Shown one piece after another: positions 1,517 to 31,360 of a DNA stretch of 36,850 bases (position 1 is its first letter; each line of letters opens with the position of its first letter). The translations under genes were made by a program, and so were the position numbers. The notes below the pieces were generated by a model. The model was not told the origin of the DNA. It saw nothing but the letters and a program-made list of their open reading frames with translations, and did no database searches. Origin of the DNA: Caulobacter sp. (GTDB lineage: Bacteria; Pseudomonadota; Alphaproteobacteria; Caulobacterales; Caulobacteraceae); the NCBI GenBank assembly GCA_030652755.1, contig JAUSPV010000047.1, positions 1 to 36,850 of the forward strand. Reading direction: 5' to 3'.

Positions 1517-1791
1517 GCCGCTTCAGGGTCAAGCCGCACACCGAGCCGAGGAAGCCTCGCACGCAGGCGCAGGAGGCCGCGACCGACCGGGCGTTCCGCA
1601 TCTTTCGGCTGCGCGGGCTCTACTACCAGGCGCTGCTGCTGACCGGTGAACGCCGCGAACAGGCGCAGGCGGCCGTCGACGCCGAGCTGCGGCTCCTGGG
1701 CGCCAAGACGCACGCCGAGCATGCCGCCGAAGTCGCCGAGCACTTGGCCGCCGAGCCCCACCCTGACGACTTCGCGGAGTTGCCCTTCTGA
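1513..1791 (+). CDS. hypothetical protein (92 aa)
   Basis: GTGA start overlap; downstream TGATG junction. Confidence 0.55.
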   Translation: MSRFRVKPHTEPRKPRTQAQEAATDRAFRIFRLRGLYYQALLLTGERREQAQAAVDAELRLLGAKTHAEHAAEVAEHLAAEPHPDDFAELPF

Positions 1792-2735
1792 TGACCCTCC
1801 CCGTCACCCCCTGGAACGGCGAGCCGATCAGCGCCGACGGCGTCTATGACCTTACGATGGACGCCTACCACGGCCAGCCGTGCGAGGGCCCGTCGATCAG
1901 CAGCAGCGGCCTGCGGACGATCTGGGAGCAATCCCCCGCGCACTACTGGATCGACAGCAGCCTCAACCCGAACCGTGCTGTCGACGACGACGAGCGGCCG
2001 CACTTCAGCCTCGGCCGGGCCGCGCATCACCTCCTGTTTCTCGGCCGCAAGGGCTTCGACCAGGAGTTCGCGACACGGCCAGCGAAGTGGAAGGACTGGC
2101 GGACCGCCGAGGCCAAGGAGTGGAGAGCCGAGCAGATCAAGGCCGGGATGACGATCATCACCGACCACGAGCTCGAGCTGATCGCCGGCATGGCCCGCAG
2201 CCTGGCCGAACACCCGATGGTCAAGTCCGGCATCCTCGACGGCGACGTCGAGCGCTCGCTGATCTGGAAGGACCCCCTCACCGGCGTCTGGCTCAAGAGC
2301 CGACCGGACAACATCACCACCGACGGCGGCGACTACTCCGACCTGAAGACGACTGTCAGCGTCTCCGACCACGCCCTCCAGCGGACCATCGCCGACTTCC
2401 ACTACCAGATGCAGGGCGCCCTGGTCGGCGAGGCCTCGCGTACCGTCCTGGGCGTCGAGATGCAGAGCTTCACGCTCGTGTTCGTCGAGAAGGCGCCGCC
2501 GCACTGTGTGCGGGTCATCACCTTGAGTGATGAGGACCTGCGCCGGGGCGCCCAGCAGGTCCGGGCCGCGGCCGACATCTTCGCCCGCTGTGTTGCGACG
2601 GGCCGCTGGCACGGGCCCGGCGGCGACCAGACCGACGCCGCCACCCTGCCGATCGACACCTTCAAGGCCAAGCGCATCGACGAGCGCCTGGAGATCCTTA
2701 AGGCGACGGACCCCTTCCTTCAAGCCGCCGAGTGA
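1791..2735 (+). CDS. RecE/exonuclease VIII-like PD-(D/E)XK nuclease
   Basis: FSLGRAAHHLLF, RPDNITTDGGDYSDLKTT (D...DxK) and FHYQMQ motifs; immediately precedes RecT/Bet. Confidence 0.85.
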   Translation: MTLPVTPWNGEPISADGVYDLTMDAYHGQPCEGPSISSSGLRTIWEQSPAHYWIDSSLNPNRAVDDDERPHFSLGRAAHHLLFLGRKGFDQEFATRPAKWKDWRTAEAKEWRAEQIKAGMTIITDHELELIAGMARSLAEHPMVKSGILDGDVERSLIWKDPLTGVWLKSRPDNITTDGGDYSDLKTTVSVSDHALQRTIADFHYQMQGALVGEASRTVLGVEMQSFTLVFVEKAPPHCVRVITLSDEDLRRGAQQVRAAADIFARCVATGRWHGPGGDQTDAATLPIDTFKAKRIDERLEILKATDPFLQAAE

Positions 2736-2739
2736 GAAC

Positions 2740-3777
2740 ATGACCGCCAGCAACATCGCCACCATCGACCCCAAGCCCGCGCGGCGCTCCGTCGTCGCGG
2801 AGGTCGCCCACCGCTACGGTATGGAAGCCGACGCGTTCGAGGCCACCCTGCGCAAGACCGTGGTGAAGGGCGACGTCAGCCGCGAGGAGTTCGCGGCCTT
2901 GATGGTTGTCGCCAACCAGTACGGGCTGAACCCGCTGACCAAGGAGTTCTACGCCTTCCCGGCGAAGGGCGGCGGGATTCAGCCCATCGTCAGCATCGAC
3001 GGCTGGTCTCGGATCATCAACGACCACCCGGCCTTCGACGGCATGGAGTTCGAGGACATCCGCGAGGGCGCCGAGCTTCTGGCCATCACATGCCGGATGC
3101 ACCGCAAGGACCGCAGCCGCCCGATCGAAGCGACCGAGTACATGGTCGAGTGCAAGCGCGGAACCGACGTCTGGAAGCAGTGGCCTCGCCGGATGCTTCG
3201 CCACAAGGCGATGATCCAGTGCGCTCGCTACGCCTTCGGCTTCGGCGGCATCGTCGACCAGGACGAGTACGAGCGCATGATCGACGTGACGCCGGCGGCT
3301 GCGACCCGGCCGGACGTCCGCGAGCGGCTGGAAGCGCGCGGCGAGACCCGAGAGGGCTTCAACGCCGCCCGCGCGACCGAGGTCGTCGACCAGATCACCG
3401 GCGAGATCACCGACGCTGTCGTCGAGCCCGTCGACCCGCCCGCCGACGACGACCTCCCCATCCGCGACGACACCGCCGACGACTTCCCGGGCGACACGCC
3501 GAGCACGGCCGATCCGCTGACCGCCCTGCGCACCGGCGCCGAACTGCTCGCAGACCAGGCCGAGCAGGATCCGGACTTCGACCCCATCGACTGGGCCGCG
3601 TCGTTCACGCGTGGGCTGGACCAGCTGCCGACGGTCGAGGAAGTCGCCGGCGCGTGGAAGGAGGCCCAGAAGTCCGGCCGCGTCCGCACGCTCAAGGCCC
3701 GCAACGAGGGCATGGCGAAGGCGCTGGCCGAAGCCGTCAACGCCCGGGTCGCGGCGATCAACGGGACGGGTGAGTGA
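2740..3777 (+). CDS. RecT/Bet-family single-strand annealing protein
   Basis: EEFAALMVVANQYGLNPLTKEFYAFPAKGGGIQPIVSIDGWSRIINDHPAFDGMEFE is the Bet/RecT core; 3-nt-scale spacing to RecE. Confidence 0.9.
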   Translation: MTASNIATIDPKPARRSVVAEVAHRYGMEADAFEATLRKTVVKGDVSREEFAALMVVANQYGLNPLTKEFYAFPAKGGGIQPIVSIDGWSRIINDHPAFDGMEFEDIREGAELLAITCRMHRKDRSRPIEATEYMVECKRGTDVWKQWPRRMLRHKAMIQCARYAFGFGGIVDQDEYERMIDVTPAAATRPDVRERLEARGETREGFNAARATEVVDQITGEITDAVVEPVDPPADDDLPIRDDTADDFPGDTPSTADPLTALRTGAELLADQAEQDPDFDPIDWAASFTRGLDQLPTVEEVAGAWKEAQKSGRVRTLKARNEGMAKALAEAVNARVAAINGTGE

Positions 3778-4841
3778 TGGCCGATGTCACTTCGATCAGT
3801 TGGACCGACCACACCTTCGCGCCGTGGTTCGGCTGCACCAAGGTCAGCCCGGCCTGCGACGGCTGCTACGCAGAGCACCTGACGGCGACCCGGTTCGGCA
3901 AGGCCAAATGGGGACCGCATGCCGAGCGGGTTCGGTCGGCTGCCTCGACATGGAAGAAGCCGCTGACGTGGAACCGGGCGGCGGCGCGAGACGGAACCTC
4001 GTCCTTCGTCTTCTGCAGCCACCTGTCCGACGTGTTCGACAACCAGGTCCCGCCCGAGTGGAGGGCCGAGCTGTTCGACCTGATCAGGATCACGCCGAAC
4101 CTGACCTGGCTGCTGCTGACCAAGCGGCCGCAGAACATCGTCAAGCTCTTCGCGCAGAGCCTCGCCCGGCCGGCTGACGATCCGGACCTTCGGAACCACT
4201 GGCCCCGCAACGCCGCCGTCGGCTGCACGGTCGTCACCCAGGCCGAGGCGGACCGCGACGTTCCGATCCTGCTCAAGTCCAAGCTGCAGATCTCGCCGGC
4301 CTTCGCCTTCGTGAGCATGGAGCCCCTCCTTGAAGCGGTGGGCCTGACGCGGGTCTGCCTCCGCCCGAGGGTCGCGGGCTCGCCTCGGGCCGGCATCCAC
4401 CTCAACAGCCTGACCGGTCGCTACTTCGAGAGCGGGGTTCCATATCATGGCGACTGGGACATCAACGGCCCGGCGCCGACCGGCCCTGGCCTCGCCCTCG
4501 ACTGGGTCATCACCGGCGGGGAGACCGACCAGGGCAAGCACATGGCCCGGCCGTCGCACCCCGACTGGTTCCGCAGCCTCCGCGACCAGTGCGCCGCCGC
4601 CGGCGTCGCCTATCACCACAAGCAGAACGGCGAGTGGGCGCCGGTCGCCATCGTCGATCCGGACGGCATCGTTCGCGGCGACGACATCATGATCTGGCCG
4701 AACGGCCACATCGGCGGCGGAACCCATCATCAGCACGGCGGCTACGGCTCACTCCAGCGCAAGGTCGGCGTCGGCCGAGCGGGGCGCGAGCTCGACGGCG
4801 TGATCCATGACGCTCGACCAGCCACCCAGGGAGCCGCCTGA
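3777..4841 (+). CDS. DUF5131 / phage Gp37-Gp68 family protein
   Basis: ISWTDHTFAPWFGCTKVSPACDGCYAEHL three-Cys motif plus FVFCSHLSDVFDNQVPPEW and WLLLTKRPQNI. Confidence 0.88.
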   Translation: MADVTSISWTDHTFAPWFGCTKVSPACDGCYAEHLTATRFGKAKWGPHAERVRSAASTWKKPLTWNRAAARDGTSSFVFCSHLSDVFDNQVPPEWRAELFDLIRITPNLTWLLLTKRPQNIVKLFAQSLARPADDPDLRNHWPRNAAVGCTVVTQAEADRDVPILLKSKLQISPAFAFVSMEPLLEAVGLTRVCLRPRVAGSPRAGIHLNSLTGRYFESGVPYHGDWDINGPAPTGPGLALDWVITGGETDQGKHMARPSHPDWFRSLRDQCAAAGVAYHHKQNGEWAPVAIVDPDGIVRGDDIMIWPNGHIGGGTHHQHGGYGSLQRKVGVGRAGRELDGVIHDARPATQGAA

Positions 4842-5545
4842 TGGCCGAACACATCATCCGCGTCATCGACTTCGAGACCACGGGCATGGAGCCGCCACAC
4901 GAGGTCTGCGAGGTCGGGTACTGCGATCTCATCAAGACCGCCGACGGCTGGGCGGTCGATCCGCCGGTCTCTTGGCTCTGCGGTGTCCGGTCGATCCCGC
5001 CGGAAGTCCGCGCGATCCACCACATCACCATGGCCGAGGTCGCTGGCCTGGAGCCGTTCGATCCGGCGGCGTTCTTCGGGGAGGAAGGGGGCGCGGCTGC
5101 GGCAGTGATCGCCGCCCACAACATGGAGTTCGAGGCGAAGTTCCTCGGCGCCCATGCCGTGCCAACCCTCTGCACCTACAAGGCCGCCCTGCGCGTCTGG
5201 CCGGAAGCGCCCGGTCATTCCAACGGTGTCCTGCGGTACTGGCTCGAAGATCAGGGCCTGCTTTCGCTGGACCACCACACGGCCATGCCGCCGCACCGGG
5301 CCGGGCCTGACGCCTACGTCACCGCGCACATCCTCAAGGCGCTCCTGACCCGCGCCACGGCCCGCGAGATGGTCGGGTGGACCCGGGAGCCCCGGCTTCT
5401 GCCGACCTGCCCTATCGGCAAGTTCCGAGGCAAGCCGTGGTCCGAAGTCGAGGCGGGCTTCCTGAACTGGATGCTCGGCCAGCCGACGATGGAGGCAGAC
5501 CTGAAGTGGAACGCCCAGCGCGAGCTTGATCGGAGGGCTGCATGA
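4841..5545 (+). CDS. DnaQ-like 3'-5' exonuclease (exodeoxyribonuclease X-like)
   Basis: VIDFETTGMEPPHEVCEVGYCDL (ExoI), AAHNMEFEAKFL (ExoII), HRAGPDAYVTAHIL (ExoIII); C-terminal PIGKFRGKPWSEV segment. Confidence 0.85.
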   Translation: MAEHIIRVIDFETTGMEPPHEVCEVGYCDLIKTADGWAVDPPVSWLCGVRSIPPEVRAIHHITMAEVAGLEPFDPAAFFGEEGGAAAAVIAAHNMEFEAKFLGAHAVPTLCTYKAALRVWPEAPGHSNGVLRYWLEDQGLLSLDHHTAMPPHRAGPDAYVTAHILKALLTRATAREMVGWTREPRLLPTCPIGKFRGKPWSEVEAGFLNWMLGQPTMEADLKWNAQRELDRRAA

Positions 5546-5733
5546 TGCGCGAGCGCGGCGCGACAATCAGCCTGCGCGTCCGGCCCGACCTCAAGGATCG
5601 GCTGGACGCTGCATCGGCGGCACACCCATACAGGCCCAGCCTGACGGCCATCCTTGAGCGCGGCGCTGAACTGGCGCTCGTCGAGATGGCCGAACAGTTG
5701 GCCGCCATGCGCGACACGAAGGGCCCCGCCTGA
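5542..5733 (+). CDS. hypothetical small protein, possibly ribbon-helix-helix
   Basis: MMRERGATISLRVRPDLKDRLDAASAAHPYRPSLTAILERGAELAL; RHH-like pattern. Confidence 0.5.
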   Translation: MMRERGATISLRVRPDLKDRLDAASAAHPYRPSLTAILERGAELALVEMAEQLAAMRDTKGPA

Positions 5734-6065
5734 TGCAGCCCGCCGCCACCATCTACTACCGCGCCAGGCACGTCCCCGGCGCCATCGACCTGGGCGCTGA
5801 CCAGACCGAGCCGCTCCGCCCGTACGGCCGCTGGTCCCGGATCCTGGACGCCCTTGTCGACGGCCCGGCGCGGCTTCGGGATATCCACCATGCTGTCCGA
5901 AAGCCCGACAGCCCTCATAGCGGCCGCGTCGAGAAGCACATGACGGTCCGGGCGCTGTTCGCGATGGTCCAGCGCGGGCTGGTCCGCCACTGCGACATAG
6001 GCTTCGAGCTGACGGCCGCCGGCGTGGCTGCGCAATCGGCGCTTGGCCAGGAGCGGGCGGCATGA
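5733..6065 (+). CDS. hypothetical protein, possible winged helix
   Basis: TGATG junction; pattern RILDALVDGPARLRDIHHAV...LFAMVQRGLVRHCDIGFELTAAG. Confidence 0.5.
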   Translation: MQPAATIYYRARHVPGAIDLGADQTEPLRPYGRWSRILDALVDGPARLRDIHHAVRKPDSPHSGRVEKHMTVRALFAMVQRGLVRHCDIGFELTAAGVAAQSALGQERAA

Positions 6066-6796
6066 CGCGGCCCCGCATCCTGGACCTCTACTGCGGAGCC
6101 GGCCTTGTCGCCGATGGCCTAAAGGCCGCCGGCTTCGACCCGACCGGCGTCGATTACGTCGCCCAGCCCCGCTACCCCGGTCCCTTCCTGCTCCACGATG
6201 CCCTGACCCTCGACGAGCGCCTGCTCGACAGCTTCCCCTTCATCTGGGCCTCGCCGCCCTGCCTGAAGGACACGGTTCTTAGCCGGTCGGCCCGGCGTGA
6301 GCAGGAGGCGCACGGCACGAAGCTGACCAGCCATCCCGACCTGATCACCCCGACCAGAGCGATGCTGCAGCGTTGGGCCGAGCGCACGGGCGGACGGTGG
6401 GTGATCGAGAACGTCTTCGGCGCCCCGCTGATCGACCCGGTGGTGCTGAGCGGCTTCATGTTCGACCTCGGCGCCAACTACGAGGGGCAGCGCTTCCACC
6501 TGGAGCGCAAGCGGAAGTTCGAGACGAACTGGCTGCTCCCGATCCCGGCCTTCACGCGCAAGAAGCCGGTAATCGGCGTCTACGGTGGCCACGCCCGCTG
6601 TCGGGCGGCCAGCGCCGGCGGACGCGGAACCGCCGACTTCATCGGCGTCGAGGACAAGACCGCCCTTATGCGCGAGGCCATGGGTGTCGACCGTTACGTC
6701 ACTGGCGCCGAGGTCAGCCAAGGCATTCCGCCGGCCTACGCTCGGTACGTCGGCGTGCAGCTGATGTCGCACCTGCGGGAAAGGGCTGCGGCATGA
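6062..6796 (+). CDS. phage-type DNA (cytosine-5) methyltransferase-like protein
   Basis: ILDLYCGAGLVADGLKAAGFDPTGVD (SAM motif I), ASPPC (motif IV-like), WVIENVFGAPL, EVSQGIPPAYARYVG. Confidence 0.82.
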   Translation: MTRPRILDLYCGAGLVADGLKAAGFDPTGVDYVAQPRYPGPFLLHDALTLDERLLDSFPFIWASPPCLKDTVLSRSARREQEAHGTKLTSHPDLITPTRAMLQRWAERTGGRWVIENVFGAPLIDPVVLSGFMFDLGANYEGQRFHLERKRKFETNWLLPIPAFTRKKPVIGVYGGHARCRAASAGGRGTADFIGVEDKTALMREAMGVDRYVTGAEVSQGIPPAYARYVGVQLMSHLRERAAA

Positions 6797-6996
6797 TCCC
6801 TCGCCCCCTCACCGCCGCCAGCTACCGGTTCGCCGCCGCCGCCCATCGTCGCGAGGCTGCGATCCGCCGGGAGTCGCCGCTGATCTTCCAGCGGGACTTC
6901 GCCGAGGTCCTCGAAGGCTGGGCCGACAACGCCGACGCCCGGGCCGATGAGCTCGAGGCCGCCGCTCAACCTGACCTGTTCCGAGGTGCCGCATGA
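6793..6996 (+). CDS. hypothetical protein (67 aa)
   Basis: ATGA overlap at 6793; MIPRPLTAASYRFAAAAHRREAAIRRES... Confidence 0.55.
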   Translation: MIPRPLTAASYRFAAAAHRREAAIRRESPLIFQRDFAEVLEGWADNADARADELEAAAQPDLFRGAA

Positions 6997-7634
6997 AAGC
7001 TCGTCCCATCCTGTTCTCCGCCCCCATGGTCCGCGCCCTGCTGGCGGGGACGAAGACGCAGACTCGGCGGGTGGTGAAGCCTCAGCCCGACAGCGTCAAA
7101 GCCCTCGGTCGGGACGACGCGCTCGTGCCTTACAGGGTGGCCGCGCCCCCCGCCGACATGCCGAGCGCAAGGATGGAGGTGCCGATCCTCTGCCCCTACG
7201 GCCAGCCCGGCGATCTGCTGTACGTCCGCGAAACGTGGGCGGCCGACGGTCAAGGGGGCGTGCGGTACTACGCCACCGACGACGTGCACGATCTGCGCCG
7301 AAAGCGCGTCAGCATCCACATGCCCCGCTGGGCCTCCCGCCTGACGCTGGAGATCACCGACGTCCGGGTGGAGCGGTTGCAGGACATCAGCGAGGCGGAT
7401 GCGCTGGCCGAGGGCATTCAGCGTTGGCCAGACGGGCGCTTCGCTGGAGATGACCACGATCCCGATCCCAACCGCCTCGCCGCCACTTCGGCAGTCGGAG
7501 CCTACTCGCTGCTCTGGACCCACATCAACGGCCCCGGCTCATGGGACGCCAACCCGTTTGTCTGGGCCGTGTCCTTCCGCGTCCACCGGACGAATGTCGA
7601 CCAGGTGCTGACCCACCTCGGGGCGGCGGCATGA
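6993..7634 (+). CDS. ASCH-like phage protein (often annotated morphogenetic protein)
   Basis: PILFSAPMVRALLAGTKTQTRRVVKPQP...CPYGQPGDLLYVRETWA...RLTLEITDVRVERLQDISEADALAEGI pattern. Confidence 0.75.
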   Translation: MKARPILFSAPMVRALLAGTKTQTRRVVKPQPDSVKALGRDDALVPYRVAAPPADMPSARMEVPILCPYGQPGDLLYVRETWAADGQGGVRYYATDDVHDLRRKRVSIHMPRWASRLTLEITDVRVERLQDISEADALAEGIQRWPDGRFAGDDHDPDPNRLAATSAVGAYSLLWTHINGPGSWDANPFVWAVSFRVHRTNVDQVLTHLGAAA

Positions 7635-7912
7635 CGGTGGCTGAGCGCACTCCCTGCAGCGTCCCGTTCTGTCGCCGATCCGTCGCTGGTCGATGGGCTG
7701 GCTATCTCTGCGGCGATCACTGGCGGCTGGTCGACAGGGACCTGAAGCGCCTGCGCACCAGGCTCCGCCGTCGATTCATGAAGCGCGGCGAGGTGCTGAC
7801 CATCAAGGGCGGATGGCGCTGCCTGACTGACCGCGCCGCCCGCGCCGAAGCCGGCATCTGGCGTCGGATGGTTCGGCAAGCCATCGAGCGAGCAACCGGG
7901 GTCTCCGCATGA
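7631..7912 (+). CDS. hypothetical protein (93 aa) with small Cys cluster
   Basis: ATGA overlap at 7631; TPCSVPFCRRSVAGRWAGYLCGDHW. Confidence 0.55.
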   Translation: MTVAERTPCSVPFCRRSVAGRWAGYLCGDHWRLVDRDLKRLRTRLRRRFMKRGEVLTIKGGWRCLTDRAARAEAGIWRRMVRQAIERATGVSA

Positions 7913-8037
7913 AGGCCCTCCGCTTCACCCTGATCCTGGCGCTCTCCGCCCTTGCCTGCGGGATGGCCGTGGGCGTCCTGATCTTCGCGCCGGCCCAGCC
8001 GCGCCTCACTTCAACCGACGAAGGACACCGCGGATGA
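7909..8037 (+). CDS. 42-aa single-TM/signal-peptide-like microprotein
   Basis: Not in the supplied ORF track; ATG 7909 to TGA 8037: MKALRFTLILALSALACGMAVGVLIFAPAQPRLTSTDEGHRG*, ATGA overlap at both ends. Confidence 0.6.
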   Translation: MKALRFTLILALSALACGMAVGVLIFAPAQPRLTSTDEGHRG

Positions 8038-8603
8038 CCACCGCCTTCCCCCTCTCCTGGCCCGACACCATGCCGCGCACCCAACGTCGCGAGGCCGGGA
8101 AGTTCACGGCCACCCTGGCGGCGGCACTGGACAACGTCGAGACCAGCCTGCGCCGGTTCGGTGCGGACAGCGGCAAGCCGGTGACCAACATCGTGCTCTC
8201 GTCGAACGTGTCCCTCGGCGTGAACAAGCCCGATGATCCCGGCATCGCCGCCTGGTTCACATGGGAAGGCCAGCAGCTCTGCATCGCCGTCGACCGCTAC
8301 CAGACGCCGGCGGCCAACCTGCAGGCCATCCACCACATCCTGGAGGCTCGCCGCGTCGAGCTGCGCCACGGCACGCTGAACCTGGTCCGGGCGACCTTCC
8401 AGGGGTTCAAGGCCCTGCCGGCGCCGCCGGGCTCGCACTGGACCGAGATCCTGAACCTGCCGATCACGGCGACGGCCGACCAGATCAAGGCCAAGCACCG
8501 GGAGCTCGCCAAGACCGCCCATCCGGATCAGGGCGGCTCTCAGGAACAGATGGCCCGGCTGACCGACGCTCGTGACCGCGGGCTGAAGCAGGTGGCGGGA
8601 TGA
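8034..8603 (+). CDS. phage J-domain protein
   Basis: C-terminal EILNLPITATADQIKAKHRELAKTAHPDQGGSQEQMARL contains the HPD motif of J domains. Confidence 0.82.
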   Translation: MTTAFPLSWPDTMPRTQRREAGKFTATLAAALDNVETSLRRFGADSGKPVTNIVLSSNVSLGVNKPDDPGIAAWFTWEGQQLCIAVDRYQTPAANLQAIHHILEARRVELRHGTLNLVRATFQGFKALPAPPGSHWTEILNLPITATADQIKAKHRELAKTAHPDQGGSQEQMARLTDARDRGLKQVAG

Positions 8604-8965
8604 CCGAGTCTGTCGACCACACAGCCCGTCTTCGCCGCATGAGAGACAATCTGAAGGGCGCGCCGGGCATTGAACTTCGCAAGGACCGCCGGGCGCTGGC
8701 GTGGGCGCTGGACAAGCTCGCGCGTGCCAGATCGGACGCGCTGACCGAGGCCGCCGACTATGCGGCCTTCTATGCCGAGGAGCGGATGCGCCTCTGCAGC
8801 GACACCATCATGCTTGATCCCGTCTTCTCGGGTGGCGAGATCACTCCGGACAGCCTCGCCAAGTCCCGCGAGCTCCAAGTCGACGGCACGATCAACTCGG
8901 CCAGCTATCACGCGGCCACGCACATCGCCGAGCACCTGCGGAAGCTGGCGGAGGGTGTCGGCTGA
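8600..8965 (+). CDS. hypothetical protein (121 aa)
   Basis: ATGA overlap; in operon. Confidence 0.55.
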   Translation: MTESVDHTARLRRMRDNLKGAPGIELRKDRRALAWALDKLARARSDALTEAADYAAFYAEERMRLCSDTIMLDPVFSGGEITPDSLAKSRELQVDGTINSASYHAATHIAEHLRKLAEGVG

Positions 8966-9369
8966 TGCTCGACCAGGCCCTCGCCTGCACATCTCCTGAC
9001 CGTCTGCCCCTGCGCATGACGGCCCAGGAGGTGTGCGCGCTCGGCCGGTTCTCCATGAACACCCTCGCCCGGAAGCGGAAGGCGGACCCCAATTGGCTGC
9101 CGCCGTCCACAGTCCAGGGCGGACGATCCACAATTTTCGACCGGCCAGCCGTTCTCAAGGCGCTCGGCCTCACCACGGATGGAGCGCCCCATGCCCCGGC
9201 GGGCGACGAATGGACATTTGACCCCGATGCCTTCCGTGCTGCTCGATCTCGGCCGGTACGTGACCGTGCGGCCGCGCAAGGACGGGACCGCGCGGGTGCT
9301 GTTCGAGGTTCCGGCCCGGCTCCGGCCCTCCGGCTGGTCACCGGCGATTCCGCTTCCGATCGGCGGTGA
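8965..9369 (+). CDS. AlpA/excisionase-like small HTH protein
   Basis: RMTAQEVCALGRFSMNTLARKRKADPNWLPPSTVQGGRSTIFDRPAVLKAL resembles AlpA/MerR-type HTH; directly upstream of the integrase. Confidence 0.55.
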   Translation: MLDQALACTSPDRLPLRMTAQEVCALGRFSMNTLARKRKADPNWLPPSTVQGGRSTIFDRPAVLKALGLTTDGAPHAPAGDEWTFDPDAFRAARSRPVRDRAAAQGRDRAGAVRGSGPAPALRLVTGDSASDRR

Positions 9370-10354
9370 GCGCCGCGGCGACCTGACCGACGCGGACGAG
9401 GTGTCGAGGATCCAGGCCGACGCAATCACGATGCTGGCGAAGCTTAGGGCCGCTCGGCTCGGTCGCGAGGTCGAGAGCCCGGCCCGCTCAATGCCGGTGC
9501 TGATCCGATCCTGGCAGTCCACCCAGCGGTTCAAGGACAAGAAGCCCAAGACGCAGAAGGGCTACGAGTACCACGCGGGCATTATCAGCGATTGGTCCGC
9601 TAGCATCGGCCACCCGCCGGTCGAGCGCCTGAAGCTGGAGAGGATCGAGGAGTTCCTCGCCTTCTACGACGACCGCCCGACGACGCGCCGGCACCTGAAG
9701 ATCGTCCTGAGCATGCTCATGGACCGCGCCATCCAACTCGAATGGAGGACCTCAAACCCGCTGGCCACGATCAAGATGGGGGCGCCAAAGTCGAGCGTCA
9801 CGATCTGGGAGCGGACAGACGTCGATACGCAGGTCGCCCGCGCTCGCGAAGCCGGCCAGCCCTCGGTCGCCGCGATCATCCTCACCGAGTGGGAGATCGG
9901 CCAGCGGATCACCGACGTGCGGCGATTTCGGCACGGCGCCGACTACGCCGGCGGCGCCTTCCGCTTCTGGCAGGACAAGACCAACAGCTGGGTCACCATC
10001 CCGGTCAGCACGGAGCTCCAAGCGCTCATCGAGGAGGTGCGCGATCCGGACAGCCTCTACCTGTTCACCGACGCGGCGACCGGCAAGCCGTGGGACGAAC
10101 AGCGCTTGGGCCACGTCTTTCAGGACATCCGGGGCGAAGGCTGCGCACTTCAGCTTCGCGCCCTGCGCCACAGCTGCGTCGTCCAACTCGCGCGGAGCGG
10201 CGTTGACATCCCCGGCATCTGCAGCATCACCGGCCACTCGCCCACGGCGGCGACCAACATCCTCAAGCTCTACCTGCCCCGCGACAATGTCCTGGCCTGG
10301 CAGGCGCAGACGAAACGGGGCCTGATCAAGAAGGTTCGGCGAACGAAAGTCTGA
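9179..10354 (+). CDS. tyrosine recombinase/phage integrase (start could be 9191 or 9227)
   Basis: LRALRHSCVVQLARSGVDIPGICSITGHSPTAATNILKLYLP: C-terminal R, GH and Y boxes; next to tRNA-Lys. Confidence 0.9.
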   Translation: MERPMPRRATNGHLTPMPSVLLDLGRYVTVRPRKDGTARVLFEVPARLRPSGWSPAIPLPIGGERRGDLTDADEVSRIQADAITMLAKLRAARLGREVESPARSMPVLIRSWQSTQRFKDKKPKTQKGYEYHAGIISDWSASIGHPPVERLKLERIEEFLAFYDDRPTTRRHLKIVLSMLMDRAIQLEWRTSNPLATIKMGAPKSSVTIWERTDVDTQVARAREAGQPSVAAIILTEWEIGQRITDVRRFRHGADYAGGAFRFWQDKTNSWVTIPVSTELQALIEEVRDPDSLYLFTDAATGKPWDEQRLGHVFQDIRGEGCALQLRALRHSCVVQLARSGVDIPGICSITGHSPTAATNILKLYLPRDNVLAWQAQTKRGLIKKVRRTKV

Positions 10355-10434: not shown

Positions 10435-10441
10435 CGATTGG

Positions 10442-10513
10442 TAGGCCGGGTGGGGGTCGAACCCACGACCATTCGATTAAAAGTCGAATGCTCTACCACT
10501 GAGCTACCGGCCC
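10442..10513 (-). tRNA. tRNA-Lys(UUU), probable integration target
   Basis: Minus strand GGGCCGGTAGCTCAGTGGTAGAGCATTCGACTTTTAATCGAATGGTCGTGGGTTCGACCCCCACCCGGCCTA folds as a cloverleaf; anticodon loop CTTTTAA. Confidence 0.95.
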
Positions 10514-23225: not shown

Positions 23226-23603
23226 CTACTGGACGGCGCCGGGCATCACCAGCCGGCCATCGCCGGTGCGAACCAGCATCAGGTACTGGTTGCCGTTCCA
23301 CTTCTGGGCCCGGAAGATTCCGCCGCGGCGCAGGTGGATGAAGCTGCCCTGGTAGGCGCCGATCATCTCGGCGTTCTGGCCGCCCAGTCGCAGGAAGCGC
23401 AGGCGCATGCCCTCGAGCTGGGCCGCGCATTTCTCGATGCTGTCGATGTCGCGGGCCACGACGTTGAACTTGTAACCACCGTCGGGAAGGTAGGCCATGT
23501 GGTAGCAGATGCCGCGCTCCGTCGGCGCCTCGAAGGCCTTCTCGCAGGCCGAGAGGACCAGGGCCGATAGGGCGGCGACGAGCGTGAGGGCGATGCGGTG
23601 CAT
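23226..23603 (-). CDS. hypothetical lipoprotein
   Basis: MHRIALTLVAALSALVLSAC lipobox. Confidence 0.7.
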   Translation of the reverse strand: MHRIALTLVAALSALVLSACEKAFEAPTERGICYHMAYLPDGGYKFNVVARDIDSIEKCAAQLEGMRLRFLRLGGQNAEMIGAYQGSFIHLRRGGIFRAQKWNGNQYLMLVRTGDGRLVMPGAVQ

Positions 23604-23635
23604 GGAGCGAGCCTAGACCTGAAACGGAGCCCGGC

Positions 23636-24304
23636 TCAACCCACCGGCGGGATAGAGCAGTTGGCGCCCTGCTCCACCAGCGTGCGGAAGCGGCGGTTGT
23701 CCTGCGAAATCTCGACCTTGTCGCGAACCAGGCGCAGCGTCTGCTCGCCCCAGCGGCCGTAGGTCGCCCCGCCCCGCTTCTCGCACTGCCCGGCGAACAG
23801 GGTTTGCACGCAGCTGTTGAGATCCATGGAGCCCGCCTGCGACCAGCCGCCGCCAGAGTAGCGCCAGCACATCGAACCGGAAGGGGCGGGCTGCGCGGGC
23901 TCGCTCGAGGCGGTCGGCGCCGTCTGGACAGGTGCGGGCGCGATCGGCTTGGGCGGAAGCGGGGCGAGAATGGTGCCCGCGGCGTCGGCGGCGGCAAGAG
24001 CCCCGGTTTCGTCAACGCCGACGTCCAGCGCGCCGGTGGCGACGCCGTTGCGCTGGGCGCATTCGGTCAGGGTGATCTCGCCGGCGAACTGGCCGGCGAC
24101 GAAGCAGCGGATCGGCCGGGCCGGATCCAGCCTGGTGTCGTCATCGCGTCCGGTCTCGACAACCAGGCCGCCCTGCGAGGCCGGGGGCGGCTCTGCCGGA
24201 GCCTTGCTTCCACGCATGATCGTCACGGCGATCAGGATGCCGAGCAACAGCGCCACGCCGCCGCCGACGGCCAGGACAATCCGGCGATCCTTGAAGAAAT
24301 CCAT
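23636..24304 (-). CDS. hypothetical single-TM protein with Cys-containing domains
   Basis: MDFFKDRRIVLAVGGGVALLLGILIAVTIM TM anchor, then a proline-rich linker. Confidence 0.65.
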   Translation of the reverse strand: MDFFKDRRIVLAVGGGVALLLGILIAVTIMRGSKAPAEPPPASQGGLVVETGRDDDTRLDPARPIRCFVAGQFAGEITLTECAQRNGVATGALDVGVDETGALAAADAAGTILAPLPPKPIAPAPVQTAPTASSEPAQPAPSGSMCWRYSGGGWSQAGSMDLNSCVQTLFAGQCEKRGGATYGRWGEQTLRLVRDKVEISQDNRRFRTLVEQGANCSIPPVG

Positions 24305-24347
24305 GTCTGAACCGCTAGCCTGCGGTGACGACGCTTTCAAGTGCGCG

Positions 24348-27251
24348 TCAGTATCCGCCGGTCAGACGATCCAGCGCCGCCTGGTAGTTGGCGATCTGGT
24401 TGGTCAGATAGGCCGGGGCCGTCCCGCCGGCGCCAGGCGCGGCGGTGACGACGGGCTTGGCCGCCGTTTCGAGGGATCTGTAGGCGTCGCGCACCCGGGT
24501 CAGCGACTTGGCGATCGCAGCGATGGCCGCGGCGATGCCGTCCTTTGAATTCAGGTTCAGGTCGATGTCGAGGCCGATGCCGAACACCGGCCCCTTGCCG
24601 TCGGCCGAAACGCTCTTGCCCGCCTTGTCGATGACGGTGTTGCGCACGACGCCGGGCGCGAGGCCGATGGCCTCCAGCGCGTCGCTGCCGCCCTTGCCGG
24701 GCAGGATTTCCACCGACGCCGACTTCTGCTGCGGGCTGACCTTGATACGGCGGAACTCGCCGTCGGCCACGACCTCGACCTTGACCTTGAAGCCGCCGGC
24801 CCGCTCGATCTTCTTGGCCAGGGTGTCGAGCGTATCGTTGGCCTCGATGGTCACGGCCGCCAGGCGCCCGCCCTGGGTCGTGCGAATCTGGAAGCTGTCG
24901 CCCGCCCGCACCGAGGTCGCCGAGACCAGCTTCTGGGAGTCGGCGAAGAGCAACGCGCCCTTCGGCAGGCCCAGCTTGTCCAGCGCGCTGGCGCCGGTGG
25001 TGTCGACGGCGATCGAGGTGGCCGTGGCCATGCCGTCCTTACCGGTCACCCGCTGCGCCTCGACGGCGCCGGAAGTCACGTCGATCTTGGCCAGGTAGCC
25101 GTCCTTGGTGGAGATCGGCATGGCGCCGGGCTGGTCGGCGCTGGCGCTCCCGGCGACCCAGACCTTGCCGTCGGCCACGGTCATGGCGCTGACCGTATCG
25201 TTTCCGACCCCGCCGAAGTAGGCGAGGTTGTCCCCGGCCGTGCTGGTCAGGTCCGTCGACAACCGGGCCGCGAAGGCGTCCTGCGCCCCACTGTAGGCCC
25301 GCGTCACGCCGCTGACATCCAGCGCGCCGTTGGAGGTTGTGCCCGCGACCCACAGGTAGCCGCCGTCCATCCCGAGGCCCTTGATGGCGCCGCCGCCCAT
25401 CTGCCCCAGGTCGCGCGTCGCGCCGGCGGTGAAGCCGGCCGCCGAGGTGTGGGTGGTCGAGGTCACCTTCGCTGGATCGGTCCCGCCGTTGTGCGCCCCA
25501 TAGTCGGTCGAGGTCACCGTCGGGACGCCGTTGGTGGTGGTGGTCGTGGTGATGTTGGCAAAGCCGTTGTCGTCGGTGCGCACCGTCTCGGTGACGCTGG
25601 GCGTGACGGTGAAGCTGCGCAACACGCCCCGGCCGTTCTCGACCCCGGCGATGGTGACGGTCGAGCCGTTGACGACCATGCCGCCGACGCTGTCCTCGCC
25701 GACAGAGCCGAACTGGGTGGTGAACAGCGTCCGGGGATCACCCTTGGCGTCGGGCGCGACAGCCATCAGGTAGTTGTCCCAGCCGCCGACGGTTCCACCG
25801 CCGCTGGGCAGCGCAGACTTGGTGCGGCCGGCGACAAACACCACGCCGTTTTCGCCGAATCCGACCTCGGTCGCCTCGTCGTCCTCCAGCGCGCCCCGGC
25901 GCTGGGTCCACATCTCGTCGCCCTTGGCGTCGAACACGGTGACGAAGCTGTCGGTCTTTCCGGAGGCGGCGGTGGAATTGATCGGTCCGTCCGTCGCGCC
26001 GTTCAGCTCACCGGTCACCCGGCCGGCGATGGCCACCCGGCCGTCCGATGCGATGCTCAGCGCCAGCCCCTCGGCCTGGTCCGCCGCGCCCAGCGTGCGG
26101 GCGTACATCAGCTTGCCGGCGCTGTCATACTTGAGCAGCGCCACGTCGCGCTCGCCCTTGACCGTCTGGTTGTCCACCGTGCCGTTGACATCGGCCAGGA
26201 CGTAGAGCGAGCCGTCGGCGCCCACCTTGCTGGCTCGCACAGTCTCGATCGTACCCTCCAGTACGCCCGACGAAATCTTCGAGCCTGCCGCGCCGACCGT
26301 TGTTCCGTCCAGCTTGACCAGCGTGCTCTCGAACTTGCCGTCGTCGGTCTTGGAGTTCTTGTCGGGGTCCGGATTGCCGGCGTAGGTCGTCACATAGACC
26401 GCCGGCGTTGTGGCCGCCGCCGAGAAAGTCAGCTGCTCGGTGGAGTCGCCGCTGATCTTGAACGAATAGTCGTCGGCGATCGCCGGGAGGGTCACGGTGG
26501 TGCCGCCGGTGGTCACCTTGCGCGGTTCGCCGGGCGTGCGCTCGACGCTGAAGCGCGACTGCAGGCCTGCGGCCGAAAGCTTGTCGTTGATGTGGGCGGT
26601 GACCGCGCCCATCGACCGGGCGCCGGAGATTTCCGAAAGGTCGATGGCGATGTTGTGGGTGACCGTGCCGCGCTTGACGGTGATGTCGAACTTTACATCG
26701 CCCTGGAAGGCGGCGACCGCGTCGCTGTGGCCGCCTGTGTGGACCTTTCCGGTCTTGTAGCTGTAGATCGCCCGCGGCACGCCGACCTCGGACTTGTTGG
26801 TGATCATGGTGTCCCCGCGGGTGATCCGCATGGTCTCCATCTTCAGCTTGTCGGTGTAGCTGGTGATCTCGGTCAGGCCGCGGGTGAACACCGAGGCCAC
26901 GCGATTGATCTCGGCCTGGGTGACGCCGGTCGCCTTGGCCCGCTCGGCCAGACCGTTGAGCGCGTTGAGCCCTTGGTACAAAGCGAAGAGCTTCTTGTAG
27001 TCGTTGCTGGCGCCGGGCAGATCGAGCTGGGCGGCCCCTTCGTCGATGAAGCGGCGCCCGGCCATGGCCTGCCTGACCAGTTCATTCGATTTGAGGGCGG
27101 TCGAGGTCGTCGCCCAGGGCGGCGTCGGCGCATACTTGGGCTTGCCCCCGACCATCGTCGCGCCAACGCCCGTCGCCCCCGCGGAAGCAAACCCGCCGGT
27201 GCGCGCCTGGTAAAATCCCAGGAGGACGTTGCTGTCGATCGAGATGACCAT
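24348..27251 (-). CDS. flaEY: FlaEY-like flagellar locus protein (967 aa)
   Basis: N-terminus MVISIDSNVLLGFYQ; two flagellin_IN-like segments; internal propeller-like repeats; position beside flagellin genes as in Caulobacter. Confidence 0.65.
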   Translation of the reverse strand: MVISIDSNVLLGFYQARTGGFASAGATGVGATMVGGKPKYAPTPPWATTSTALKSNELVRQAMAGRRFIDEGAAQLDLPGASNDYKKLFALYQGLNALNGLAERAKATGVTQAEINRVASVFTRGLTEITSYTDKLKMETMRITRGDTMITNKSEVGVPRAIYSYKTGKVHTGGHSDAVAAFQGDVKFDITVKRGTVTHNIAIDLSEISGARSMGAVTAHINDKLSAAGLQSRFSVERTPGEPRKVTTGGTTVTLPAIADDYSFKISGDSTEQLTFSAAATTPAVYVTTYAGNPDPDKNSKTDDGKFESTLVKLDGTTVGAAGSKISSGVLEGTIETVRASKVGADGSLYVLADVNGTVDNQTVKGERDVALLKYDSAGKLMYARTLGAADQAEGLALSIASDGRVAIAGRVTGELNGATDGPINSTAASGKTDSFVTVFDAKGDEMWTQRRGALEDDEATEVGFGENGVVFVAGRTKSALPSGGGTVGGWDNYLMAVAPDAKGDPRTLFTTQFGSVGEDSVGGMVVNGSTVTIAGVENGRGVLRSFTVTPSVTETVRTDDNGFANITTTTTTNGVPTVTSTDYGAHNGGTDPAKVTSTTHTSAAGFTAGATRDLGQMGGGAIKGLGMDGGYLWVAGTTSNGALDVSGVTRAYSGAQDAFAARLSTDLTSTAGDNLAYFGGVGNDTVSAMTVADGKVWVAGSASADQPGAMPISTKDGYLAKIDVTSGAVEAQRVTGKDGMATATSIAVDTTGASALDKLGLPKGALLFADSQKLVSATSVRAGDSFQIRTTQGGRLAAVTIEANDTLDTLAKKIERAGGFKVKVEVVADGEFRRIKVSPQQKSASVEILPGKGGSDALEAIGLAPGVVRNTVIDKAGKSVSADGKGPVFGIGLDIDLNLNSKDGIAAAIAAIAKSLTRVRDAYRSLETAAKPVVTAAPGAGGTAPAYLTNQIANYQAALDRLTGGY

Positions 27252-27319
27252 AGGGGCCCTGGACGGAGTTCCGCGTCGAAAGCTTGCCCGACAAGGGCTG
27301 AGGAGTCGTTAAGCGCGGC

Positions 27320-27944: not shown

Positions 27945-28778
27945 TCAGCTCTTGAACAGCGACAGGATGATCTGCGGCTGCTGGTTGGCGATCGACAGCG
28001 CCTGGGCGCCGAGTTGCTGCTGAACCTGCAGGGCCTGGAGGCGCGCGCTTTCCTTCGCCAGGTCGGCGTCGACCAGGTTGCCGATCCCGGTGTTGAGCAC
28101 GTCGGACAGCTTGGACACGAACTTGTTGTGCGCCTCGATCTGACGCGACTGCGCGCCCAGGTCGCCGAGGGCCTGGTTGACGTTGCTGATTGATGTGGTC
28201 AGCGCCGCCTGGATGCTGGTGGCCAGGGTGGCGGTGGTGATCGAGGCCGTCGCCGCCATGGTCACGATGGCGCCGCCCAGCGCCATGTTCTTTCCCGACA
28301 GGGTAATGTGCGAGTTCGCGTCGGCATTGGCGAGAAACCGGATGCTGGCGCCCAGCGAACCGTCGAGCAGGTTGGCGCCATCGAACTCGGCGTCGTTCAC
28401 CACCTGGGTGATCTGCCGGAGCAGGGCCTTGAAGTCCGAGTCGAGGGCGGTGCGGGCGACGGTGTCCAGCGACGGGTCCATCGCGGCCGTCACCTTCTCC
28501 TTCATCTGCAGCATCAGGTCAGAGACGGTCTCGCCGGCCGTCATCGCCACGTCGGCGATGGACTGGGCCCGGTCGAGGCTCATCTTGACCGCGCTGAGCG
28601 CGCCGAGGTCGGCTCGCTGGGCCTGGGCGATGCCCCAGACCGAGGCGTTGTCCTTGGCCCCCTGAACCTTGAGGCCCGTGCTGATGCGGTTCTGCACGCC
28701 GGCCATGTCGTCGTTGGTCTTGTTCAGATTCTGTAGCGCGACCAGGGCTGACTGGTTGGTATGGACGCTGATCGCCAT
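27945..28778 (-). CDS. flagellin (divergent paralog)
   Basis: [53 protein letters not shown]-terminal ALSIANQQPQIILSLFKS. Confidence 0.93.
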   Translation of the reverse strand: MAISVHTNQSALVALQNLNKTNDDMAGVQNRISTGLKVQGAKDNASVWGIAQAQRADLGALSAVKMSLDRAQSIADVAMTAGETVSDLMLQMKEKVTAAMDPSLDTVARTALDSDFKALLRQITQVVNDAEFDGANLLDGSLGASIRFLANADANSHITLSGKNMALGGAIVTMAATASITTATLATSIQAALTTSISNVNQALGDLGAQSRQIEAHNKFVSKLSDVLNTGIGNLVDADLAKESARLQALQVQQQLGAQALSIANQQPQIILSLFKS

Positions 28779-29367: not shown

Positions 29368-30198
29368 TTAGCGGAACAGTCCCAGGAGGGACGAGGTCGA
29401 GCTGTTGGCGATCGACAGAGCCTGCACGCCGAGCTGTTGCTTGGTTTGCAGGGCCTGCAGCTTGGCGCTCTCCTTGGCCAGATCGGCGTCGACCAGGTTG
29501 CCCACGCCGGCGTCGAGGCTGTCTTGCAGCTTGCCGACGAAGGTGAGGTGCGACTCGAGCGACTTCGAACCGGTGCCGAGCTTGGCCAGGGCCGAGCCGA
29601 CGTTGGAGATCGAGGTGCTGACGGTCGTGACCAGCGCCGCCGCGATGGTGGCGGTGCTGAGCGAGGCCGTGGCGGCGACGGTGACGTTGGCGCCGCCGAG
29701 AGCCAGCGACTGCGCCGCCACAGTGATCTTGGACGTGCCGTCCGCGTTGGCCAGAGCCGTCACGGTGTTGCCCGAAGCCTTGATCATGTTGGCGCCGTTG
29801 AAGTCGGCGTTGGTGACAGCCTTGGTGATCTGATCACGAAGCGCCTTGAAGTCTTCGTTCAGAGCCGAGCGGCTGGTGGTGTCGAGCGTCGTGTCCGACG
29901 CGGCCAGGGCCTTTTCCTTCATCTGCAGAAGCAGGTCGGAAACGGACTCGCCGGCGGCGATCGCGACGTCGATGGTGGATTGACCGCGCTGGAGCGAGTC
30001 CTTCACGGCGTTCAGGGCGTTGGACGTGCCGCGCTGGGTTTGGGCGATGGCCCACACCGCGCCGTTGTCCTTGGCCGAGGCGACCTTCTTGCCGGTGTTG
30101 ATGCGGCCCTGAACGTTGGCCAGTTCGTTGTTCGTGGCGTTCAGGTTTTGCAGCGCGACGAGCGCGCCATTGTTCGTGTTAACGCTGTTCAGCGCCAT
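29368..30198 (-). CDS. flagellin
   Basis: [58 protein letters not shown]-terminal [19 protein letters not shown]. Confidence 0.96.
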
Positions 30199-30462: not shown

Positions 30463-31287
30463 CTACTGGAACAGTCGGGTCAGCGACTGGGTCGACGTGT
30501 TCGCGATCGAGAGCGCCTGGACGCCGAGCTGCTGCTTGGTCTGCAGAGCCTGGAGCTTGGCGCTTTCCTTCGCGAGGTCAGCGTCGACCAGATTGCCGAT
30601 ACCCGCGTCGAGGCTGTCCTGCAGCTTGCCGACGAAGGTCGCGTGCGCATCGAGAGCCTTGGACTTGGTGCCAAGGCGAGCGAGAGCCGCGCCGGTGTTG
30701 GTGATGGAGGTCGAGACCGTCGTGATCATGGCCGCAGCCAGGGTCGACGTTCCGATCGAGCCCGCCGCAGCGACGGTCACGATGGATCCGCCCAGGGCCA
30801 TGACTTCAGCAGCCACGGTAATCTTGGACGATCCGTCCGCATTGGCGAGGGCCGCGATGGCCGTAGCGCCGGTCTTGATGAGATTGGTCCCATTAAAATC
30901 GGCGTTCGACACGGCCTTGGTGATCTGGTCACGCAGGGCCTTGAAGTCCTCGTTCAGTGCGGACCGGCTGGTGGTGTCGAGGGTGGTGTCCGACGCCGCC
31001 AGGGCCTTTTCCTTCATTTGCAACAGCAGATCAGAGACGCTTTCGCCGGCGGCGATCGCCACGTCGAGCGTGGAGCGACCCCGATCGAGCGAATCCTTCA
31101 CCGCATTCAGGGCCTGCGAAGTGCCGCGTTGCGTCTGGGCGATGGCCCAGATGGCGCCGTTGTCCTTCGCGCTGGACACCTTCTTGCCGGTGTTGATGCG
31201 ACTCTGCGTCTGCGACAGTTCCATGTTGGTCGCGTTGAGGTTCTGGAGCGCGATCATCGCGCCCACGTTGGTGTTGACCGAATTCAT
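30463..31287 (-). CDS. flagellin
   Basis: [56 protein letters not shown]-terminal [19 protein letters not shown]. Confidence 0.96.
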
Positions 31288-31360
31288 CGGCTTTCCTTCC
31301 ATTCTGGTCGGGGGGATGCCCGGCTTTTGCCGGCGAGCATTCTTGCTCGCTAATCGCATC

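Follow-up and report, generated by a model that had tools for sequence, protein, structure and literature searches.

The window analysed here, a stretch of 36,850 nucleotides from a Caulobacter sp. contig (JAUSPV010000047.1), carries on its minus strand (24348..27251) an open reading frame running from ATG to stop and encoding 967 amino acids, for which we keep the name FlaEY given in an earlier note on this DNA. By sequence comparison, the ORF is a member of the FlaEY family, which occurs in Caulobacterales and other alphaproteobacteria: it aligns over the full or nearly full length with FlaEY of many Caulobacter (E 0 to 1e-235). Homologues, mostly single full-length ORFs, are found in 45 of 61 relatives and also in named records of Caulobacter (some of them named C. 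vibrioides), Phenylobacterium, Asticcacaulis, and Woodsholea. The gene is single-copy in the source genome, and the closest named records to the window are Caulobacter MAGs.

The surrounding region is flagellar. The nearest flagellin gene (27945..28778, minus strand, with Pfam matches to both Flagellin_N and Flagellin_C) is accompanied by further flagellins at 29368-30195 and 30463-31290, and Pfam identifies FlaG, FlaF, FlbT, a GNAT acetyltransferase, and a TPR protein alongside them. The latter two we take to be FlmH and FlmG, and the neighbours of flaEY resemble flagellin-modification genes. The upstream region of flaEY contains a GAGTC site (GANTC) at 27303..27307; in C. crescentus, GcrA binds the flaY promoter, and this binding depends on CcrM, the promoter being a CcrM/GcrA target (PMC3667746). 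Two small cysteine-containing genes lie downstream of flaEY (23226-24340), and the same position is kept in another genus of the family. Elsewhere in the window, a prophage-like segment (1791-10354) encodes an exonuclease VIII, a Bet-like annealing protein, a DNA methyltransferase, and an integrase, with tRNA-Lys adjoining at 10439-10513. In other genomes the location varies. In one of them, FlaEY is flanked by flgI and fliG, and in Erythrobacter aureus it is part of a plasmid's main flagellar cluster, with fliG on one side and a basal-body gene, flgN, and flgI on the other; some genomes have it away from flagellar genes or next to a FliL-like gene alone.

The single FlaEY protein matched no model of Pfam or NCBIfam above the cut-off. 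The AlphaFold model (67 sequences) is confident (pLDDT 87.4, pTM 0.81), and it predicts helices, a first IN domain, a propeller, a second IN domain, and again helices, in this order; the inserted beta-propeller proposed in the earlier note is thus present in the model, together with terminal helices. The propeller is of the SBBP type and occupies residues ~282-754 (24990..26408, minus strand). All five repeats on which the proposal was based are found (GRVAIAGR at ~404, NGVVFVAGR at ~467, STVTIAGV at ~530, GYLWVAGT at ~631, and GKVWVAGS at ~695), and a simple repeat motif occurs 8 times against 1.7 in shuffled sequences (P 0.003). Residues 282-754 of the model form about 28-30 strands in four-stranded blades, of which there are about seven by our reading of the model's strand list, two more than the repeats noticed earlier; judging by the strand order, strands at ~282-330 and 741-754 would close the ring. 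Among solved structures, the propeller of CylK was matched by the single FlaEY sequence in phmmer (E 5e-23) and by the family profile (E 4e-67), and is the closest solved relative. The Pfam SBBP family (PF06739) is detected in 24 of 44 FlaEY members (best 6.5e-22), the window protein alone giving no match, and the NCBIfam family SBBP LipL53 in 42 of 44. Repeats and predicted fold together place FlaEY among the SBBP beta-propellers. In the literature searched, we found no beta-propeller within a flagellar axial protein.

On the N-terminal side (all segments on the minus strand), a tail of residues 1-36 (27144..27251) is modelled as a short helix 7-18 followed by a low-confidence linker. Residues 81-150 (26802..27011) form a D1-like hairpin, with helices 83-106 and 112-135, that is homologous to flagellin ND1: hhalign aligned residues 36-182 with ND1 at E 3.2e-7, against 0.32 for the reversed control. 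No part of flagellin could be aligned by hhalign with the first ~80 residues, the ND0/ND1a region being missing, and the N-terminal helices had no hhalign match in FliD. The propeller is flanked by two flagellin_IN-type beta domains, residues 183-300 (26352..26705) and 770-875 (24627..24944), which correspond to the two flagellin_IN-like segments noticed earlier. They align with each other (E 1.4e-5; reversed control 0.097), and the second aligns with the IN domain of FliD (E 1e-8; reversed control 0.03), so that the suggested profile comparison with flagellin and FliD detected both relationships, whereas reversed profiles detected neither. When genomes were searched with the FlaEY profile, weak matches to FliD and flagellin reading frames were obtained as well. 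A ubiquitin match of the same profile was taken as likeness to the IN module and not to ubiquitin.

Since the top ranks of a Foldseek search with the whole model were occupied by propellers only, CylK being the first, residues 40-300 were modelled separately (pLDDT 80, pTM 0.46); the fragment retains the first IN domain. Its best five matches in the PDB were 9m6h, 9u4r, 9m67, 9m6i, and 9gnz; four of these are titled FliD or cap complexes, the remaining one the initial complex in filament assembly. Rank 8 was FliC D2/D3. Taken singly, the FliD/cap matches are weak (E 5e-3 to 4e-2, four of the five spanning about 125 columns), and it is the agreement among the best five that carries weight. At the other end, a helix of residues 901-932 (24456..24551; 903-931 in the model) is a candidate CD1, the C-terminal 88 residues giving a non-significant hhalign score with flagellin CD1 (E 0.034; Flagellin_C region, PF00700); the C-terminal region had no significant hhalign match to FliD either. 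The two ends, for which the earlier note saw a resemblance to axial-protein termini, have no significant match to the textbook termini. The most conserved segment is the last helix, PAYLTNQIANYQAALDRL, at residues 944-965 (24357..24422; helix 947-965 in the model), with mean identity of 84% in the 40 nearer homologues and 45% in the rest. Possibly, it binds a chaperone or the filament tip.

There is a single cysteine in 61,972 residues over 67 FlaEY homologues, whereas the rate in the other window proteins (0.94%) predicts about 580; none occurs in the window flagellins, and 4 occur in 15,165 residues of FliDs. This near-absence argues against a cytoplasmic protein, in agreement with the view taken in the earlier note. 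No hydrophobic or Sec-like signal was seen at the N-terminus of FlaEY, and both observations fit export through the flagellar channel. FlaEY thus has the broad features of axial proteins: helical ends around beta domains, no Sec signal, and few cysteines. On the strength of composition, homology, and model, FlaEY is very probably an exported flagellar axial protein.

Which axial position it might take was approached through the other genes of the source genome (99.99% complete). A family match identifies FlgK, which is adjoined by FlgL-like and hook-like (FlgE-like) genes, these two being recognised by inspection of their termini and gene order. In contrast to FlgK, FliD is missing: none was found by PF07195, and none at E 1 with a profile of alphaproteobacterial FliD. 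The Caulobacter vibrioides control genome likewise contains flagellin but no FliD by PF07195. With FlgK and the FlgL-like gene present, the junction is already filled, and the missing FliD points to the filament tip. The earlier idea of a surface or junction component can thus be narrowed to the tip as a candidate location. A comparison of FlaEY with FlgK gave no match, the two sequences compared being too shallow a sample for a conclusion. FliD was detected by PF07195 in 9 of 41 relatives. At one locus of a Caulobacter having both genes (L123, 8400-18324), Pfam identifies FlgD, FlgE, FlgK, FliS, a sigma-70-family factor, and a separate flagellin alongside FliD. Second flagellar systems that include FliD occur in some large-genome Caulobacter. 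The possibility that the FliD of such Caulobacter caps the flagellum of FlaEY was rejected at this one locus, where it is part of the separate system.

Among 388 alphaproteobacterial genomes, FlaEY (full or nearly full by profile) was found in 30, FliD (above cut-off) in 86, and both in none; flagellin was present in all 30 FlaEY genomes. With kinship ignored, Fisher P values are 6e-7 for the lack of overlap and 2e-7 for the co-occurrence with flagellin, and the mutual exclusion is in part phylogenetic. In families having FlaEY, two members without flagellin have FlaEY absent or as a fragment, and a third retains a 191-aa piece. About half of the flagellin-positive genomes in this draw have neither FliD nor FlaEY. 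Caulobacterales without FlaEY mostly have few, long flagellins (frames of 397-530 aa), whereas those with FlaEY have several short ones. Two families of Caulobacterales and one genus of a third are flagellated and have neither FlaEY nor a detected FliD, again mostly with few long flagellins.

We infer from the architecture, the homology to ND1 and the FliD IN domain, the depletion of cysteine, the co-occurrence with flagellin, and the lack of a detectable FliD that FlaEY may be exported by the flagellum, oligomerise at the filament tip, and act there as a cap-like axial protein replacing the missing FliD. We give this reading nearly an even chance: FlaEY has parts like those of a cap, in a genome whose cap is missing and whose junction is already occupied. 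FlaEY would be exported by the flagellar secretion system after FlgK and FlgL; the two IN domains and the propeller would form a plate and an outward crown, holding and folding the incoming flagellins. Somewhat more tentatively, FlaEY could cap the filament in Caulobacterales and related alphaproteobacteria that have no FliD in general, as a second evolutionary solution to capping in which flagellin-like helices and IN domains are combined with a beta-propeller crown. Several facts speak against a cap: the genomes with neither gene, which mean that a genome without FliD need not have FlaEY; the lack of specificity of IN modules; the flagellin-like N-terminal helices; and the naming of FlaEY as a possible regulator in the literature (PMC8921679). 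IN modules were rejected as cap markers, as FlgK- and FlgE-like proteins have them too; they mark axial proteins, not caps.

The flagellin-like ND1 also agrees with another role outside the cell, namely that of a low-copy subunit of the filament, an adaptor between hook and filament (for example, adjoining FlgL), or a filament-borne adhesin, displaying the propeller without capping. The position of flaEY next to the flagellin genes and its association in Caulobacterales with several short flagellins suit such a role; however, a protein missing the ND0/ND1a region could hardly be packed into the filament tube, and the junction already has FlgK and the FlgL-like gene. We regard this as unlikely, although it is the strongest of the alternatives. 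Less probable still is an exported regulator: FlaEY would inhibit or signal inside the cell until export relieved it, and flagellin synthesis would in this way be coupled to the assembly of the filament. Besides the label already mentioned, altered fliC and flgI expression is reported for a mutant of the Sphingomonas homologue FlaQ, as cited in PMC8921679, and control of the flaY promoter by GcrA and CcrM points in the same direction. However, no DNA- or RNA-binding domain was found in FlaEY by Pfam, NCBIfam, or the model, its length of ~970 aa, its IN domains, and its propeller are not what one expects of a typical anti-regulator, and a defect in assembly would also change expression. A cytoplasmic flagellar protein, such as a chaperone platform for flagellin glycosylation or export, is very improbable given the near-absence of cysteine and the homology to axial modules, despite an N-terminus that is not Sec-like and adjoining genes of the flagellin-modification type.

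A cap-like axial protein thus remains the preferred reading, and the regulator label could then reflect an indirect effect, the loss of a filament-assembly part feeding back on flagellin expression. Overall, the observations of the earlier note are confirmed, and its interpretation is largely supported. For filament growth in alphaproteobacteria that have no FliD, FlaEY provides a named, testable candidate, encoded beside the flagellins of a model genus; the lack of FliD, observed here for Caulobacter, is also reported for Rhizobiaceae (PMC6913195).

The propeller of FlaEY resembles CylK and the SBBP (LipL53) family in sequence and fold. CylK is an enzyme of Friedel-Crafts alkylation; a CylK-like enzymatic reading of FlaEY was rejected, there being no evidence of that chemistry, and FlaEY has no N-terminal signal. 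FlaEY is similar to flagellin (FliC/Flj) in the ND1 hairpin (E 3e-7), the virtual freedom from cysteine, and the adjacency of the genes, but it is about 3.5 times as long as the window flagellins, lacks ND0/ND1a, and has two IN domains and a propeller. Of the complete flagellin D0/D1 (PF00669), it has only the ND1 hairpin, with a weak Pfam match in 3 of 44 members, the window protein not among them. With FliD (HAP2) it shares the IN-type beta domain (E 1e-8), the best PDB matches of fragment 40-300, and the scarcity of cysteine, and differs in its flagellin-like N-terminal helices, the large inserted propeller, and the termini. Neither FliD_N (PF02465) nor FliD_C (PF07195) matched FlaEY or appears in the list of 25 families obtained for 44 homologues; by sequence, therefore, it is not a member of the FliD family, although it may still work like FliD. 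FlaEY also bears the name of FlaE-FlaY of C. crescentus, and members of its family are found across Caulobacter; FlaE-FlaY is described in the literature as a possible regulator (PMC8921679, PMC3667746), whereas the structure predicted here indicates an axial protein. If this is true, a gene long labelled a regulator would be re-filed as a structural part of the flagellum.
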